41,314 nucleotides of DNA from Flavobacteriales bacterium (lineage in GTDB: Bacteria > Bacteroidota > Bacteroidia > Flavobacteriales_E > Vicingaceae): positions 1-41,314 of the forward strand of contig JAJCYO010000002.1 of the NCBI GenBank assembly GCA_029262875.1. Reading direction: 5' to 3'. Of the stretch, positions 2,691-35,744 are shown one piece after another (the first letter of the stretch is position 1; each line of letters opens with the position of its first letter). The notes beneath the pieces were generated by a model. The model did not search any database and had not been told where the DNA came from. It saw only the letters and a program-made list of their open reading frames with translations. The translations under genes were made by a program, and so were the position numbers.

Positions 2691-3137
2691 ATGGCAATAG
2701 ACAGGAAGAGGCTCTTTTATCGTTTAAAATTTTATGGTTTTGGTTTTGGATTAGGATGTGTTCTGGTATGGGCCACATTATATAATGGAAGAGATGAAAG
2801 ACCATCATGGCTTCCAGAAGGAAGAGTGTTAGAGTTTTTAGAGCGAACAGATATTGATATTAGTGATCAGCTAAAATGTGAACTGGAGTGTAATAACATC
2901 CCAATCAATTTTATGGACAGTACGTTTTGGGCAAATGCCAGCGTTGATTTTGATCAAAGTGCAGTTAAAAGAAAACCATGTCCAGAACATTATATTAAAT
3001 CTACAATAAAAGATGGTAGAGAACTTATAATTTATGTGGAAAACTGTGAAACATGTGAGGATTGTGAAGAAGAAGGGGTGGCCACTTTAAGGAGTTTTGT
3101 TAACCTTTCTGAAAAGGATAAGGTTTGTGACTGTTAA
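2691..3137 (+). CDS. Cys-rich single-pass membrane protein, DUF4258-like
   Basis: This 148-residue protein begins one base after the ald stop. Residues 12-31 form one hydrophobic segment rich in Gly, Phe and Leu, so the rest is probably outside the cytoplasm. The soluble part has eight cysteines, several paired: C63/C67, C97, C119-x2-C122-x2-C125 and C146/C148. From memory, the pattern of a membrane segment, a P-x-GRVLEFL stretch and a VDFDQS motif resembles DUF4258-type proteins that follow ald in other flavobacteria; I could not test this. The cysteine clusters are the unusual part and suggest metal binding or disulfides, which is inference. The function is unknown. Confidence 0.75.
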   Translation: MAIDRKRLFYRLKFYGFGFGLGCVLVWATLYNGRDERPSWLPEGRVLEFLERTDIDISDQLKCELECNNIPINFMDSTFWANASVDFDQSAVKRKPCPEHYIKSTIKDGRELIIYVENCETCEDCEEEGVATLRSFVNLSEKDKVCDC

Positions 3138-3142
3138 ATAGA

Positions 3143-3187
3143 AAAGGGCATTTGAAATAATATCAAACACCCTTTGTTTTTCTATTT
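3143..3187 (+). terminator. Probable terminator after the porX-ald group
   Basis: AAAGGG at 3143-3148 pairs with CCCTTT at 3170-3175. An inner TTTGA/TCAAA stem lies across two mismatches. A T-rich run (GTTTTTCTATTTTT) follows. It sits between convergent genes. Confidence 0.6.
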
Positions 3188-3205
3188 TTAAGGTAATTAT
3201 TGGTT

Positions 3206-3265
3206 TTACGACAAGGCGTCAAACTCTTTTCTTTTGTTTTCGAACCACTCTTTCATTGCATCAGG
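3206..3265 (-). pseudogene. Out-of-frame 3' tail of the DUF1059 gene
   Basis: On the minus strand this stretch reads PDAMKEWFENKRKEFDALS and then a TAA stop (3206-3208). It is in another frame from the DUF1059 gene that ends at 3253. From memory, its wording continues that family's C-terminus. One extra C in the CCC run at 3264-3266 would join the two parts into a continuous 76-residue protein. This is either a real frameshift or a lost base in the sequence. Confidence 0.65.
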
Positions 3266-3435
3266 GATTTCATCATTTCCTGTATCTCATTCATAGCTTT
3301 TAGATGTGCTTCGTCTCCTTTTTGGAACATTTCCATACCGTGATTTTTACTCATTTCAGCCATTTCTTCAAATGTATTGGCGTGAAATTCTTTATCACAT
3401 GCTCCTCCTAATTGCTTACAAGTCATTGTTTTCAT
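3253..3435 (-). CDS. DUF1059 family small protein, apparently frameshifted near its end
   Basis: This encodes 60 residues with the DUF1059 pattern: MTCKQLGGACDKEF at the start, then TFEEMAEMSKNHGMEMFQKGD and a helical end. Two cysteines (C5 and C13) are kept. No function is established for the family that I know of. The frame stops at 3253, but an excellent C-terminal continuation is found one frame over down to 3206, so the intact gene was probably 76 codons. It lies 32 bp after nhaD on the same strand and is likely the last gene of the dehydrogenase-nhaD operon. The coding N-terminus is convincing; whether the C-terminus is really lost cannot be decided from one sequence. Confidence 0.8.
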   Translation of the reverse strand: MKTMTCKQLGGACDKEFHANTFEEMAEMSKNHGMEMFQKGDEAHLKAMNEIQEMMKSLMQ

Positions 3436-3467
3436 AGTCGTTCTTTAGTATTTATAATAGTTGAGGT

Positions 3468-4835
3468 CTAAATAAAGCCTCTCATTAACATGAATACGCC
3501 AGCTCCAGCTACATAACCAATTAGAGCTAACCAAGCGATTTTCTTTAAATACCAGAAAAAAGATATTTTTTCCATTCCCATTGCTACAACACCTGCGGCA
3601 GAACCAATGATTAACATACTACCACCAGTACCGGCAGCATAGGCTATAAAATGCCATGTGGTTGCATCCATCGGATAATTAGTCATGTCAAACATTCCCA
3701 TACTAGCTGCAACTAAGGGTACATTATCAATCACAGCAGATCCAGCACCCAAGAGCATTACAAACACATCACTATCAATGGAAGCTTGAACATCTTGACC
3801 AAAGGTAAAGATCAAGCCTAAGGATTCAAGTGCTGCAACCGTCATTAAAATTCCTAAAAAGAACAAGATAGAAGGCATTTCAATTTTTGCCAAAGCACCA
3901 AATGTTGGGCTATCAGCATGACCACTTTTTTCATCAGCGGCCTCTCCTATGTCAGTTATGCTAAACCTACGGTTACTAATAACTTCTGCAACCATTGCAA
4001 CAACAGATAGTGACAACATCATCCCTACATAAGGAGGGAGGTGAGTTACGGTTTTAAAAATAGGAACGAAAACAATCATTCCTAACCCCAAATAAAGCAT
4101 AAAAGCTCCCTTGCTATCCATCTCTCCTCCATCATTATTAGCTTCAAAGCTACCTTTAAATGCAGGTAAAAAGCTTGCGATTATTGTTGGAATTACCATG
4201 CACACTAACGAAGGAATGATCAAGAATTTAATTAGCATTAAAGCACTTACTTTGTTCCCCATCCATAACATAGTTGTTGTAACATCACCAATAGGAGACC
4301 ATGCTCCACCAGCGTTTGCAGCAATGATAATTAAACCAGCAAACCAAATTCTATCTGTTTTATCCGGCACTAATTTTCTAAGTATTGTAATTAAAACAAT
4401 GGTGGCAGTAAGATTATCTATTATAGCAGAAAGGATAAACCCTAAAATACAAACAATCCATAGTAAGGTTCTTTTTTTGTTGGTTTTAATAAAACCCTTA
4501 ATGGTAGCAAACCCATGGAAGTGATCAATGATTTCTACAATGGTCATTGCTCCAATAAGAAAAATAAGGATTTCACATGTTTTACCAAAATGATGGAGTA
4601 ATGTACTTTCCATCAGATGAAGTTTTGTTTCATGATCCATAAGACCATAACCTTCTAGCATTTTCATGGCATGAGAATCGAACCAAGTGGTAAAACCATC
4701 TAATCCAAAAGCAACACCAGCCCAAGCCAATGCCATCATTAAAAGTGCTGGAACCAATTTATCAACTTTTAAGCTGTGTTCCAATGTAATCGCTAAGTAT
4801 CCTAAAACAAATACTATTACAATAAATATTTCCAT
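3468..4835 (-). CDS. nhaD: NhaD-type Na+/H+ antiporter
   Basis: This 455-residue polytopic inner-membrane protein has about twelve hydrophobic segments and belongs to the NhaD branch of the ion-transporter superfamily, which exchanges Na+ or Li+ for protons. Typical motifs include DNLTATIVLITILRKLVP, GGAWSPIGDVTTTMLW and, in the second half, AVIDNVPLVAASMGMFD; the two DN(L/V)(T/P) motifs mark the inverted-repeat halves. The protein starts MEIFIVIVFVLGYLAITLEH, a normal first helix for the family. It lies 38 bp after the amino-acid dehydrogenase and 32 bp before the DUF1059 gene, so the three likely form one operon. Sodium-proton exchange of this kind is common in marine bacteria and supports a saline habitat. 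Confidence 0.93.
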   Translation of the reverse strand: MEIFIVIVFVLGYLAITLEHSLKVDKLVPALLMMALAWAGVAFGLDGFTTWFDSHAMKMLEGYGLMDHETKLHLMESTLLHHFGKTCEILIFLIGAMTIVEIIDHFHGFATIKGFIKTNKKRTLLWIVCILGFILSAIIDNLTATIVLITILRKLVPDKTDRIWFAGLIIIAANAGGAWSPIGDVTTTMLWMGNKVSALMLIKFLIIPSLVCMVIPTIIASFLPAFKGSFEANNDGGEMDSKGAFMLYLGLGMIVFVPIFKTVTHLPPYVGMMLSLSVVAMVAEVISNRRFSITDIGEAADEKSGHADSPTFGALAKIEMPSILFFLGILMTVAALESLGLIFTFGQDVQASIDSDVFVMLLGAGSAVIDNVPLVAASMGMFDMTNYPMDATTWHFIAYAAGTGGSMLIIGSAAGVVAMGMEKISFFWYLKKIAWLALIGYVAGAGVFMLMRGFI

Positions 4836-30586: not shown

Positions 30587-30673
30587 TTAAACAGCAGTTA
30601 ATTGTAGTGTGCTTAAATTCTTGTAGATGCCATTTTCTAATTGAATCAATTCTGAGTGAGTTCCGGTCTCTTT
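30587..30673 (-). pseudogene. Detached 3' end of an ABC-transporter gene (28 codons plus stop)
   Basis: Read on the minus strand, this ends in a TAA stop and encodes the same last 28 residues as the ABC exporter at 31301-33067 (KETGTHSELIQLENGIYKNL through STLQLTAV). Aligned without gaps, 14 of 87 bases differ and all 14 changes are synonymous. Upstream of it the frame meets a stop, so it is a remnant, not a gene. Together with 31301-31387 it forms imperfect direct repeats around the outer-membrane gene at 30712-31299. Confidence 0.9.
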
Positions 30674-30711
30674 GTTTTTTTATTATCTTTAGTATTGTTT
30701 ATGGAATGATT

Positions 30712-31299
30712 ATGAAAAATTTAAGAGTAGTAATAGTTTTATTTTTAATGATAATCACACTGTCAGTAAATGCGCAATTTAAGATTGGTGCAAAAGGTGG
30801 GATTAATTTTGCTAATGTATCAGGTATTGATAGTCCTTTATCAGAGATAAATGGTTTAACAGGTTTTAATGCTGGAGTAATGACAGAATTAAAATTTGTT
30901 AAAATAGGGGTAGAAGCCGATGTTTTATACTCTAGAAAAGGATTTAATATGGATATAACTTCAGGATTTCCTATTAGTTCGTTTTCATCTGAAATAAGCT
31001 TAGATTATATAGATATACCAGTAGTAGCTAAGTTGTATTTTATTGAAGTTATTAACCTACAAGCAGGAGTTGAATATTCTTATTTACTGAATGCTACTAC
31101 CAAAATCGATGGATTCGGAGATAGGGATTCAAAAGATGATTTTAATTCAAATGATTTTTCGGCTATTGTTGGATTTGGAATAGACGTGAATAGATTTCAT
31201 ATGTCAACTCGATATTATTTCGGGATTACCAATATAAATCAAGGAGACGCAAAAAATCAAGTTTTACAGATTTCGATAGGTTTTTGGATAAAGAAATAA
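30712..31299 (+). CDS. Outer-membrane beta-barrel (porin-family-like) protein
   Basis: With the start at ATG 30712 this is a 195-residue protein with a signal peptide (MKNLRVVIVLFLMIITLSVNAQ). It continues FKIGAKGGINFANVSG, the usual opening of small Bacteroidota outer-membrane beta-barrels. Alternating hydrophobic strands follow, ending in VLQISIGFWIKK with an aromatic residue near the C-terminus. The frame runs on upstream to 30607, but that part overlaps the detached ABC-gene fragment and is not convincing. Its stop lies one base before the convergent ABC-transporter stop. It is bracketed by direct repeats, which suggests insertion here. Function unknown beyond membrane location. Confidence 0.85.
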   Translation: MKNLRVVIVLFLMIITLSVNAQFKIGAKGGINFANVSGIDSPLSEINGLTGFNAGVMTELKFVKIGVEADVLYSRKGFNMDITSGFPISSFSSEISLDYIDIPVVAKLYFIEVINLQAGVEYSYLLNATTKIDGFGDRDSKDDFNSNDFSAIVGFGIDVNRFHMSTRYYFGITNINQGDAKNQVLQISIGFWIKK

Positions 31300-31300
31300 C

Positions 31301-33067
31301 TTAAACAGCAGTCAACTGCAGCGTGCTCAAATTCTTATAAATCCCATTTTCTAACTGAATCAACTCCGAATGAGTTCCAGTTTCTTTAATCTTACCATTA
31401 TCTAATACAACAATGTTATCAGCATTTTTAATGGTAGATAATCGATGAGCAATTACCAATGAAGTTCTTCCTTTCATTAATCTATCCAACGCTTCTTGAA
31501 CCAATCGTTCACTTTCTGAATCCAATGCACTGGTAGCTTCATCTAAGACTAATATAGAAGGGTTCTTTAAAATAGCTCTCGCTATTGCAATACGTTGTTT
31601 TTGTCCACCAGAAAGTTGAACTCCTCTATCGCCAACTAAGGTCTCTAATTTTTCTGGAAAGCTTTCAATAAACTCTAATGCATTGGCTTGTTTAGCCGCT
31701 TCAAAAATTTCTTCTTCAGTTGCACCAGGTTTACCATATTCTATATTCTCTTTAATGCTACCTCCAAAAAGCATTACGTCTTGTGGAACCAAAGCCATTT
31801 GGTTTCGTATTTCAGATAACTGAAAATCATTGATGTTTTTACCATCTATCATAATGGAACCACTTTCTGGATTATAAAACCTAAAAAGTAATGCCCCAAT
31901 AGTTGTTTTCCCAGAACCAGAAGGACCAACAAAAGCAATTTGTTTTCCTTTTTTCACACTAAAAGAAATCGATTTTAGTACTTGGATATCTCTTCTTGAA
32001 GGATATGAAAAATCAATGTTGTTAAACTCAATGTTTCCATCAATGGTTATTTTTTTAGGCCCCTCCAAAGAAATATTTTCTGGAGTTCCTTCTAAGATAT
32101 CCATCAAATGTTCTGTGGCACCAATAGACTTCTGAAGTTTAGAAAACAGTTCAGCTGACCCACCAAATGCAGCACCTAAAATGGCTGAGTAAATCGCAAA
32201 TTGAAGCAATCCACCTATCGTTATTTCTTCCATTTGCACCATATGTAGTCCGTACCAAATAATGGAAACAATAGCAGAACCAGCTGCAAACATAATTAGA
32301 CCAATAAAAACACCTCTCCATCTTGCTCTTTTTACAGAAGTGGTTACCGAACTGTCAATACTCTTTTTATACCTGGCTATTTCAAAAAATTCATTTGCAT
32401 AAGCCTTTACACTGGCTATTCCATGCAATGTTTCATCTACCACTCCATTTGATTCAGCGATATCATCTTGAGCATTTTTAGAAAGTTTTTTGATGTATTT
32501 TCCAAAGAAGATTCCGATTAGGGCAACCACGGGGATTACAGCAATCATAAAAACAGTCAATCGAAACGAAATGAACATCAAGAAAAACAAACCAACAGGT
32601 ATGGTGATCATTTGACGAATAATTTCCGCAATAGTAGTGGTAAAAGTCTCTTCCAAAAGAGCTATGTCATTAGTAATCCTACTGCTTAATTCTCCAACCC
32701 TTTTTTGAGAGAAAAAATTCATCGGAGATGAAATTAAATGTTTGTAGGTTTCAGTTCTTAATAATGCTAAGGATTTTTGAGTGACATACCCAAAAAGATA
32801 AATCCTAAAAAAGGACATGATAGCAATAATCAAGAAAATACTAATTAAGATAATGGTAATGTTATTAACTGCATTTTCCTCTGATGAATTAGCAGAATCT
32901 ATTAAATCCCCTAATACTTTTGGAAAAGCCATCGTTACCACACTAGAAATAATGAGTACTAACATTCCAAAAGTAAATGCAATACGGAATGGTTTTATAA
33001 ACCTAAAAACACGCATGGCTTTTTTGATGGACTCTTTTGAAACTTTATTTCTTTTTTTTCTCGCCAC
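31301..33067 (-). CDS. ABC transporter exporter (fused membrane and ATPase domains)
   Basis: This 588-residue half-transporter has six membrane helices in the first 310 residues and an ATPase domain after that. Walker A is GPSGSGKTT, the signature is VQLSGGQKQRIAIARA, Walker B is SILVLDEATSALD, and the H-loop is VIAHRLST. This is the MsbA/multidrug/lipid exporter type, which works as a dimer; the substrate is unknown. It begins one base after the stop of the 2OG-Fe(II) oxygenase gene on the same strand, so they are probably co-transcribed. Its last 28 codons exist a second time at 30587-30673 with only synonymous changes. Confidence 0.95.
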   Translation of the reverse strand: MARKKRNKVSKESIKKAMRVFRFIKPFRIAFTFGMLVLIISSVVTMAFPKVLGDLIDSANSSEENAVNNITIILISIFLIIAIMSFFRIYLFGYVTQKSLALLRTETYKHLISSPMNFFSQKRVGELSSRITNDIALLEETFTTTIAEIIRQMITIPVGLFFLMFISFRLTVFMIAVIPVVALIGIFFGKYIKKLSKNAQDDIAESNGVVDETLHGIASVKAYANEFFEIARYKKSIDSSVTTSVKRARWRGVFIGLIMFAAGSAIVSIIWYGLHMVQMEEITIGGLLQFAIYSAILGAAFGGSAELFSKLQKSIGATEHLMDILEGTPENISLEGPKKITIDGNIEFNNIDFSYPSRRDIQVLKSISFSVKKGKQIAFVGPSGSGKTTIGALLFRFYNPESGSIMIDGKNINDFQLSEIRNQMALVPQDVMLFGGSIKENIEYGKPGATEEEIFEAAKQANALEFIESFPEKLETLVGDRGVQLSGGQKQRIAIARAILKNPSILVLDEATSALDSESERLVQEALDRLMKGRTSLVIAHRLSTIKNADNIVVLDNGKIKETGTHSELIQLENGIYKNLSTLQLTAV

Positions 33068-33068
33068 G

Positions 33069-33887
33069 CTACTTCTTTTTATTTTTATCTTGAAAATCCA
33101 ATGATTTAACTCCTAAAGAATTAAGAATACGTTTAGCAGTAATTTTCAATGGTTCTTTAATGCCTGTTGCTACCTTTTTAGCTGTGGAGTCATCTGGTCT
33201 AGAAACAAATTTGGAATCACTATAATTGAATCCCTCTCCAACTTCAGTGAAATAATAAGTATAGAACGATTTTCTGGTCTCACCTTCTGGCACAGTTATT
33301 TTACCATAGCCATGAGGTGAATTTTCATCTGTAAGAAATATAATTGCCCTGTTAAAATCACAAGGAACAGTTGCTTCACATTTTGTCATTGCTTTATCCC
33401 AAAGCTCCAAATCGCCACCATATGCTGGTTCCCAATTTTTATTTAGGTAAATCAATAAGTTAATTCTTCTCCAAAGGTTTTCAGCGGGATTGTAATTTAC
33501 ATCAATATGCACGTCTACATAACTTCCATTTTGGCCTTGGTGAACACCAGAACCCAAAGAATCATTCGTAGTTTTTAACCCTTCAATACCTGTTATGGTT
33601 TCCATAAACTGGTACATTTCTGGAGAAGATACAACCTCTTTTAAATCACTAAAACTTGGGTGAAAACGGTCAAAATGATAATCTTCTGACTTGTTTTCAT
33701 TAATACTTTTACGCTTAACGTTGAGGGTGTCTATTTTTGGGAAATTTTCATATAATGTTGTAGCCAACTCTTCAGTAAGAAAATTAGGCAATACAAGATA
33801 CTTGCATGGCTTTGCAGTCTCAAAATCATTTTTCAGCTGTTTTATTTTCTCAGCTTCTAAATAGATGGGATTGATTACATTTTTCAT
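33069..33887 (-). CDS. 2OG-Fe(II) oxygenase family protein
   Basis: This 272-residue soluble protein has the metal-binding pattern of 2-oxoglutarate/Fe(II) oxygenases: H127-I-D129 in VDVHIDVNYNP, a distal H192 in SPHGYGKI, and R205 with S207 in ETRKSFYTYYF for 2-oxoglutarate. The strand RINLLIYLNKNWEPAYGGDLELW is typical of the prolyl-hydroxylase-like group. It ends in a basic tail (DKNKKK). It sits one base upstream of the ABC exporter, suggesting that it modifies something the exporter handles, though this is inference. Substrate unknown. Confidence 0.87.
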   Translation of the reverse strand: MKNVINPIYLEAEKIKQLKNDFETAKPCKYLVLPNFLTEELATTLYENFPKIDTLNVKRKSINENKSEDYHFDRFHPSFSDLKEVVSSPEMYQFMETITGIEGLKTTNDSLGSGVHQGQNGSYVDVHIDVNYNPAENLWRRINLLIYLNKNWEPAYGGDLELWDKAMTKCEATVPCDFNRAIIFLTDENSPHGYGKITVPEGETRKSFYTYYFTEVGEGFNYSDSKFVSRPDDSTAKKVATGIKEPLKITAKRILNSLGVKSLDFQDKNKKK

Positions 33888-33906
33888 TTCTAACTGTTAA
33901 GGTTGG

Positions 33907-33914
33907 CAAAGGTA
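33907..33914 (-). promoter_or_regulatory. Putative -7 box for the oxygenase-ABC pair
   Basis: Read on the minus strand this is TACCTTTG, matching TAnnTTTG, 19 bases before the start at 33887. No clear -33 TTG is visible. Confidence 0.4.
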
Positions 33915-34007
33915 ACCAAATTATATGATGATGGTTAAATTCATAATTTGATTCTTTTAATCAAATATCGAATAAATACTTCTATAATTAGCGTAGACAT
34001 GGGCTGT

Positions 34008-35744
34008 TTAGAAGAAGTTTACAAAACCAAAGTGAATTTTAGCCGAACGGAATACGATAGGATTATCAAATTGTTTACCAATTGCGTAACTGATGGAGAA
34101 AATTCCTGCTCTTGTTTCAAAGCTCATGCCAGCGCCAAACCCAAAGGGCCTATCCGCTACAAATTCGTCAATTCCGTCATTTTCATAGTAGGCACCATCA
34201 AAGAACAAATACAAATAAGAATTCTGCTCTAAAATGTATCGATATTCAATTGTTTCGATGGTATACATTGAGGCAAAAATAGATTCTTCGTCAAAACCTC
34301 TCAATGTTAATAGGCCTCCAATACGAAGTAATTCATTTTCAAATAGGTTTTCATTAAATGTATAGCCATTCTTTGAGGCTAATTTGATAACACTTCTTTT
34401 AGTAATAGGAAGGTAGTAGCTAATGTCCAGATCAGTATTATACAATGTACTTTTTAAGTTAAGGTTTTCGTATAGTTTATCATCTATTTGCGGATTTTTT
34501 TTAATGGTTTTGTTCCCTAAAGATCCAGAAAAAGTAATGTCATACCCTTTTCTTGGGTTTAAGACATAATCAAGTTTAGTGTTATGAATTTCTATACCAT
34601 AAAGCTGAGATGATACGTCCGCATAAGAAGGTAAGACAGTTAGGGCGGCAAATCCGGTTTGTGATAATAGGTTTGATGATTTGTTATGAAAAAACACTTT
34701 GAAATAGTTGTTTCCCTTTAAAATATACCGAAGCCCAATTTTGTGACCAACATCAATAAAAGTGGTATCTTTTTTATATAGTTTGAAGTTGTAATCCAGT
34801 CCAAAAGGCGTGTTTACTAAAAAAGGATACATCACGTTGAACTTTAAGTCTTGGGTGTTTTCCTGAATGGCCCTCCAGTTAAACTCAATTTTTTCACCGT
34901 TATGAAAGGAATTGATCAAATTTAACTTCACATCTCCTGTTAACCTTAATTTCCCTGTTTGATCATCAGGCAATAAACCTAAAATTCCATCAAACCTGCT
35001 TGCCCTTTTCTTTTTTAAATAAAGTAAGATTTTGGATTTGTCCTCTGTGAACACAATTTTCCATTTCTTTTCTTCCGTTACAAAAGGAAGCTCCCTAATC
35101 CGTGTGCTTATTTTTCTAATCGCTTCTTCATTGTAGACGTCTCCTTCTTTTATTCTAATATAATTTTTAATGTACTGGTTAGAAATGGTAGCATTTCCCT
35201 TGATAAGAACACTGTCAATTTTATACAATCGGTTTTTGTCCAAAAATAATTGGGCCGACAGTTTATTTCCTTCAATTTGAATACCATCTAATTTTATAGA
35301 AGCAAAAGGATAGCCATGGTTTTCATAGAACAAAATAACTTTTCTAAAGAAATTTTTTAATTGCCTTTCACTAAAGGGGCTGTCATTGTACAACTTATCT
35401 CTGAAACCAATTTTACTTAAAATTTCTTCATCAATATTTTTGTTGGTAAGGGAAGTCCACTTGAAAGTTTTTCCAAGATGAATAAAAACATGATAATAAG
35501 ATGAGTCAACAATAATACTATCTGTAGAGGAAATTAAGTATGCTTTTTGATGCAGCTGGTTTAAAACGTTTGACAATTCATTTTTTAATTCAGATAAGTT
35601 TAAATTACTGTTGTAGTCAATAAGTTTAGTTGTTTTTAAAACGGTATCATTAAAAGAAACCTTTAGTTCAATTTTTTGAGCATTTACGGATACATTAAAC
35701 AATGTAAAAAGTAACAAGATTGGTATGAATATCTTTAGTTTCAA
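34008..35744 (-). CDS. BamA/TamA-family outer-membrane protein
   Basis: With a TTG start at 35744 this is a 578-residue protein with a clean signal peptide (KLKIFIPILLLFTLFNVSVNAQ). The frame stays open to 35792 inside ung, but that part lacks signal-peptide character. The N-terminal half has POTRA-like repeats (SERQLKNFFRKVILFYENHGYPFASIKL, IDSVLIKGNATISNQYIKNYI). The C-terminal half is a beta-barrel of the surface-antigen/Omp85 kind and includes LLRIGGLLTLRGFDEES, where the RGF motif belongs to the conserved barrel loop. It ends in FGFVNFF, a normal outer-membrane signal. Omp85 proteins insert proteins or lipids into the outer membrane. The essential BamA is usually longer, so this is an accessory member. 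Confidence 0.87.
   Translation of the reverse strand: MKLKIFIPILLLFTLFNVSVNAQKIELKVSFNDTVLKTTKLIDYNSNLNLSELKNELSNVLNQLHQKAYLISSTDSIIVDSSYYHVFIHLGKTFKWTSLTNKNIDEEILSKIGFRDKLYNDSPFSERQLKNFFRKVILFYENHGYPFASIKLDGIQIEGNKLSAQLFLDKNRLYKIDSVLIKGNATISNQYIKNYIRIKEGDVYNEEAIRKISTRIRELPFVTEEKKWKIVFTEDKSKILLYLKKKRASRFDGILGLLPDDQTGKLRLTGDVKLNLINSFHNGEKIEFNWRAIQENTQDLKFNVMYPFLVNTPFGLDYNFKLYKKDTTFIDVGHKIGLRYILKGNNYFKVFFHNKSSNLLSQTGFAALTVLPSYADVSSQLYGIEIHNTKLDYVLNPRKGYDITFSGSLGNKTIKKNPQIDDKLYENLNLKSTLYNTDLDISYYLPITKRSVIKLASKNGYTFNENLFENELLRIGGLLTLRGFDEESIFASMYTIETIEYRYILEQNSYLYLFFDGAYYENDGIDEFVADRPFGFGAGMSFETRAGIFSISYAIGKQFDNPIVFRSAKIHFGFVNFF

Follow-up and report, generated by a model that had tools for sequence, protein, structure and literature searches.

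Probable recent frameshift inactivation of a conserved DUF1059-like small-protein gene in a Flavobacteriales genome

Does a 60-codon open reading frame (ORF) in the genome of a Flavobacteriales bacterium encode a genuinely short protein, or is it a longer gene that has lost its reading frame, and if so, did the loss occur in the organism or in the assembly? We examined this ORF within the window, a 41,314-nucleotide stretch of DNA from contig JAJCYO010000002.1 of assembly GCA_029262875.1. On the minus strand, the ORF starts with an ATG at 3435 and ends in ...MMKSLMQ*, with its TGA at 3255-3253. The initial annotation proposed that the gene stops after 60 codons while a family-like C-terminus runs on to 3206 one frame over, and the ORF coordinates and translations confirm this arrangement: PDAMKEWFENKRKEFDALS is read in another frame of the minus strand from 3265, with a stop at 3208-3206. 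Joining the 57 head residues to the 19 tail residues gives the proposed total of 76, and the GGG placed at 3264-3266 of the plus strand is present in the sequence. A homology-free frame-switch scan, trained on codon usage alone, also put a switch at 3286 (minus strand). The overlap of the new stop with a tail-frame ATG is a by-product of the frameshift (Table 1). A search of the same genome at E ≤ 10 revealed no second copy of the gene; the sole other match lay elsewhere, at E = 0.75.

Table 1. Features at and around the frame break, in coordinates of the window
Feature	Position	Strand	Basis
Shortened 60-aa ORF; predicted family fold minus C-terminal helix, two strands and two helices retained	3253..3435	-	ORF list, AlphaFold2 models
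Putative site of one-base loss, TCCC versus TCN-CCN in relatives	3264..3267	-	Comparison with relatives
Out-of-frame C-terminus PDAMKEWFENKRKEFDALS plus stop; family-like, retains conserved P, M, W, K, F	3206..3265	-	Translation, comparison with relatives
ATGA: new TGA stop overlapping tail-frame ATG (conserved Met codon)	3253..3256	-	Sequence
CitMHS-type transporter, 455 aa, upstream on the same strand, 32 bases before the broken gene	3468..4835	-	ORF list, Pfam
Convergent 148-aa ORF, no Pfam match	2691..3137	+	ORF list, Pfam
Terminator-like hairpin, downstream of tail	3143..3175	-	Hairpin scan

A scan of named genomes returned at least 510 loci encoding a relative, and we kept the best 80 by score, a selection from which the frequency of broken copies cannot be read. 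All of these best 80 of at least 510 loci encode the protein in one frame, at lengths of 75-82 aa (79 aa, n = 40; 78 aa, n = 33; 80 and 76 aa, n = 2 each; 82, 81, and 75 aa, n = 1 each); one (L100) lies within one base of a contig end, and one (L034) contains an N. The initial annotation had named relatives sharing the 60-residue form as evidence against a frameshift; no such form was seen among the best 80 of at least 510 named loci or among the copies from 395 genomes of the class.

Identities were calculated for 84 of 86 coding sequences (the 80 best plus six from other genomes), after one of fewer than 76 codons and one with an N were dropped. Relative to these 84 sequences, the mean amino-acid identity is 76% for the window head and 0.665 for the 19-residue tail. 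Restricted to 18 residues, the tail value is 0.70 in its own frame versus 0.11 and 0.07 when it is read in the remaining two, and by this sequence comparison its resemblance to the family exceeds chance. Tail differences from the 84 relatives sum to 366, 198, and 858 at codon positions 1, 2, and 3, respectively, a pattern that would fit a tail translated in that frame until lately. Of 30 residues that are invariant or nearly so, the window copy retains 29 when both frames are counted, M51 being the one that differs, so the break is either young or not real. The branch leading to the window copy is also short (0.063 versus a median end branch of 0.16).

The label DUF1059 proved to be approximate. 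A distant likeness is suggested, but the score of the window ORF against PF06348 is 14.6 bits, below the curated cut-off of 21.1, in a weak match over residues 1-32, and a DUF1059 profile search of the whole genome gave no match at E ≤ 0.001. Among relatives, 25 of 59 match DUF1059 at E ≤ 0.01; when 10 were scanned singly, only the divergent L148 scored above the cut-off. DUF1059-like is a fair description of a protein that scores below the membership cut-off. The likeness consists of an N-terminal two-Cys pattern followed by a strand and a helix, whereas the relatives of the window gene are about 78 aa long and have two further helices.

These relatives form a family of about 78 aa (MKTMTCKQLGGAC) found in Bacteroidota, Pseudomonadota, and other phyla. 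Over its first 56 residues, the window head is 82-91% identical to the nearest members, and it shares their C-terminal helix sequence, but out of frame after residue 57, whereas the relatives are continuous. The conserved Cys6, Gly10, Gly11, Cys13, and His32 of this MKTMTC family are all present; P58, M61, W64, K68, and F72 are present but one frame over. With its frame broken relative to a conserved family and its flanks still homologous, the window gene would class as a frameshift pseudogene. Since one of 30 conserved residues is changed, there has been little decay, and we see no difference in kind from ordinary young pseudogenes, which share a single indel with little further decay. NCBIfam gave no match for the first member of the family set, weak NCBIfam matches to APS reductase (up to 19 of 59 members, best E = 4e-4) look spurious, and PHROGs gave nothing for the window protein and one weak match for a relative. 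The DUF1059 passages of PMC9561532 and PMC12470103 do not treat the window gene.

The predicted AlphaFold2 structure of the full-length protein has two strands and helices at residues 22-38, 42-55, and 58-74 (pLDDT 93.9). A PDB fold search found no match at E ≤ 10, and the best match of a PDB sequence search (E = 0.39) explained no function. The shift falls at residue 57, between predicted helices 2 and 3, a position that would also suit a working shortened protein whose N-terminal DUF1059-like core is whole. In line with this idea, the Pfam model of DUF1059 spans only 56 positions, and the 60-residue form is still predicted to be ordered (two strands and the first two helices, pLDDT 91.8), in a model whose alignment was borrowed from full-length relatives. 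However, the missing helix carries the nearly invariant P58, M61, W64, K68, and F72, none of the best 80 of at least 510 named loci encodes fewer than 75 aa, and the undecayed tail implies that there has been no time for selection on a short form to show. We therefore regard a working short form as improbable. Re-initiation at the ATG of the ATGA overlap, on the 16-codon remnant, is conceivable; a gene on its way to becoming two pieces, in which the 60-residue core would still associate with a separately re-initiated 16-residue helix (MKEWFENKRKEFDALS), strikes us as far-fetched.

Both frames look coding, as would be expected if programmed ribosomal frameshifting or transcriptional slippage joined them, and a frame-shifted copy in another genome of the genus (G013, described below) has a shift of the same sign. 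That shift is at another codon, however, and inspection by eye of the sequence ahead of the window gene's stop revealed neither an X-XXY-YYZ heptamer nor a long run of A/T. The relatives, in one frame throughout the best 80 of at least 510 loci, offer no two-frame arrangement. Programmed -1 frameshifting was rejected on the grounds of the missing slippery site and the one-frame relatives, and a joining of the two frames by either mechanism is very unlikely.

The initial annotation described a one-base loss relative to the family, with both flanks intact as coding sequence and the event either very recent or an error. This description stands; the C homopolymer that it offered as the cause does not. 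At the site, 45 of 85 readable relatives have TCN-CCN, where N is T (n = 19), A (n = 13), G (n = 7), or C (n = 6), so that the third base is T, A, or G in 39 of the 45. The TCN codons of the genome itself (148 long ORFs, 312 kb) are TCT in 46%, TCA in 34%, TCC in 10%, and TCG in 9% of cases. Because deletion of any third base N from TCN-CCT leaves TCCCT, the CCC run is more likely a result of the deletion than its cause. Given the third bases of the relatives and the codon usage of the genome, slippage in a C homopolymer is unlikely to have caused the loss. Adding one C to the CCC run, as had been suggested, does restore 76 residues; judged against the TCN-CCN relatives, it would be only one of four equal readings.

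If the contig were simply short of one base, the organism would have the full 76-residue gene. Both halves of the gene are otherwise intact and keep nearly all conserved residues, and the genome is a 173-contig draft, all of which is consistent with an assembly or sequencing error. Against this, we compared 543 ORF proteins from 0.70 Mb of a genome of the same genus (G006) with 1.00 Mb of the genome under study. A counterpart was found for 84 of the 543 (33,269 aa); none of these 84 required a second frame, while an internal stop mark was seen in three. The reverse comparison gave 0 of 83 shifted, again with three stop marks. When one deletion was planted in each of the 84 orthologues, 73 were flagged and three dropped out. 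The assembly is thus not generally frameshift-rich, although at a coverage of about 33,000 aa a handful of isolated errors would escape.

The ab initio frame-switch scan, applied to 312 kb of the genome, has modest sensitivity. Its strictest setting, which requires at least 20 codons on each side, yielded two candidates, one of them the window gene; of 51 planted deletions, it recovered 20. Under laxer settings the number of candidates was 17, with 24 of 46 plantings recovered, or 54, with 32 of 44. The other candidate at the strictest setting (L111:188) is located 5 bases before the stop of its upstream frame. Two further observations speak against an error: the site has no run longer than CCC and probably did not lie in a longer one, and the related G013 copy is independently broken and decayed. 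We consider an error in the contig possible but rather unlikely.

The gene is patchily held: it occurs in 6 of the 14 genus genomes, in 8 of the 46 from the family (the order comprises the same 46), and in 18 of 395 sampled from the class. Ten copies were counted in the genus, of which four are intact (G001, G006, and two in G002:C37) and six are broken or fragmentary (the window copy, G013:C33, G013:C295, two in G002:C37, and G011). The G013:C33 copy (L125:4350-4800) has a one-base shift after residue 39, an intact tail, and three changed conserved residues, thus retaining 27 of the 30; it is the second copy of the widespread type in the genus and is also frame-shifted. The G011 copy is a 42-codon remnant, and the G013:C295 copy is a fragment. 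On G002:C37 (L127, 28000-38000), four copies or fragments lie within 5 kb, at 30602-30829, 31273-31356, 33842-34069, and 35027-35083: two are intact, one is internally deleted with both ends kept, and one has its end replaced by unrelated sequence. Two copies cut by contig ends were left out of the genus count, one on C56 of G013, with its tail intact, and one in G067. The contig end in the latter (G067:C115; L126:4120-4185) carries what we take to be transposase-adapter sequence (AGATGTGTATAAGAGACAG); the truncation of the G067 gene would then be due to library adapter rather than to biology.

Beyond the genus, two of the 18 class-sample copies appear broken. One (G241:C44; L150) is interrupted by an in-frame stop at about residue 39, and a further copy in its genome is intact; the other, a second copy in G048, is ambiguous, with a CTG at the usual start and a different C-terminus. 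Counting the genus copies by a 79-aa query at E ≤ 0.001 gives 4 of 8 broken versus 2 of 18 outside (Fisher p = 0.051, or 0.020 with the ambiguous copy taken as intact), and 6 of 10 versus 2 of 18 under mixed criteria gives p = 0.011. These comparisons are post hoc, the copies are not independent, and the excess of breakage within the genus is weak.

The copy closest to the window gene comes from G350, in another family of the class, and is 91% identical in amino acids and 90% in nucleotides over the head (L134). By comparison, the intact copies of its own genus are 59-68% identical to it in amino acids over the head, so that positions 3253-3435 of the window are nearer to the other-family copy. 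Such a nearer match in another family suggests horizontal transfer of the window gene. In a tree of 76 columns, with most forks unresolved and only 39 residues in the G013 row, the four intact genus copies form a separate clade (98/98), and the window and shifted G013 copies fall among rows from many phyla. This placement suggests, without proving it, that the window copy entered from outside the genus and that both genus copies of the widespread type carry shifts, each at a different site.

The surroundings of the gene revealed no partner. The upstream transporter is, by eye, presumably an NhaD-like antiporter. None of the four neighbors compared (the transporter, a dehydrogenase, the 148-aa ORF, and an alanine dehydrogenase) recurs outside the window among 90 loci, and a conserved operon partner was rejected; the largest recurring neighbor group spans 4 of the 90 loci, and ORF calling recovered the gene itself at 64 of the 90. 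An RNA element at the site was likewise rejected, with no Rfam match within 2900-3700. The hairpin scan found one hairpin versus 0.9 in shuffles, which is not above chance.

Overall, we favor a real, recent, and quite ordinary inactivation of a conserved small-protein gene, with a probability of roughly two in three. The ancestral product would have been 76 residues long, with two strands, three helices, and an N-terminal Cys pair, and would have belonged to a widespread family of small proteins that is strongly conserved and distantly resembles DUF1059. A single base would have been lost recently where helices 2 and 3 meet, and we infer that this loss is real in the organism. The ribosome would now read three foreign residues (LMQ) and then stop, so that the protein would lack its final helix and the conserved Trp, Lys, and Phe in it and would probably be non-functional or impaired. 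Because of its patchy distribution and its repeated breakage in the genus, the gene is likely dispensable here. For annotation, the 60-aa ORF would best be described as a frameshifted member of a conserved family of about 78 aa, not as a shorter protein. Repeated breakage within one genus, set against strong conservation in the rest of the family, hints at easy gain and loss of the gene, a property that may help in working out the function of the family.
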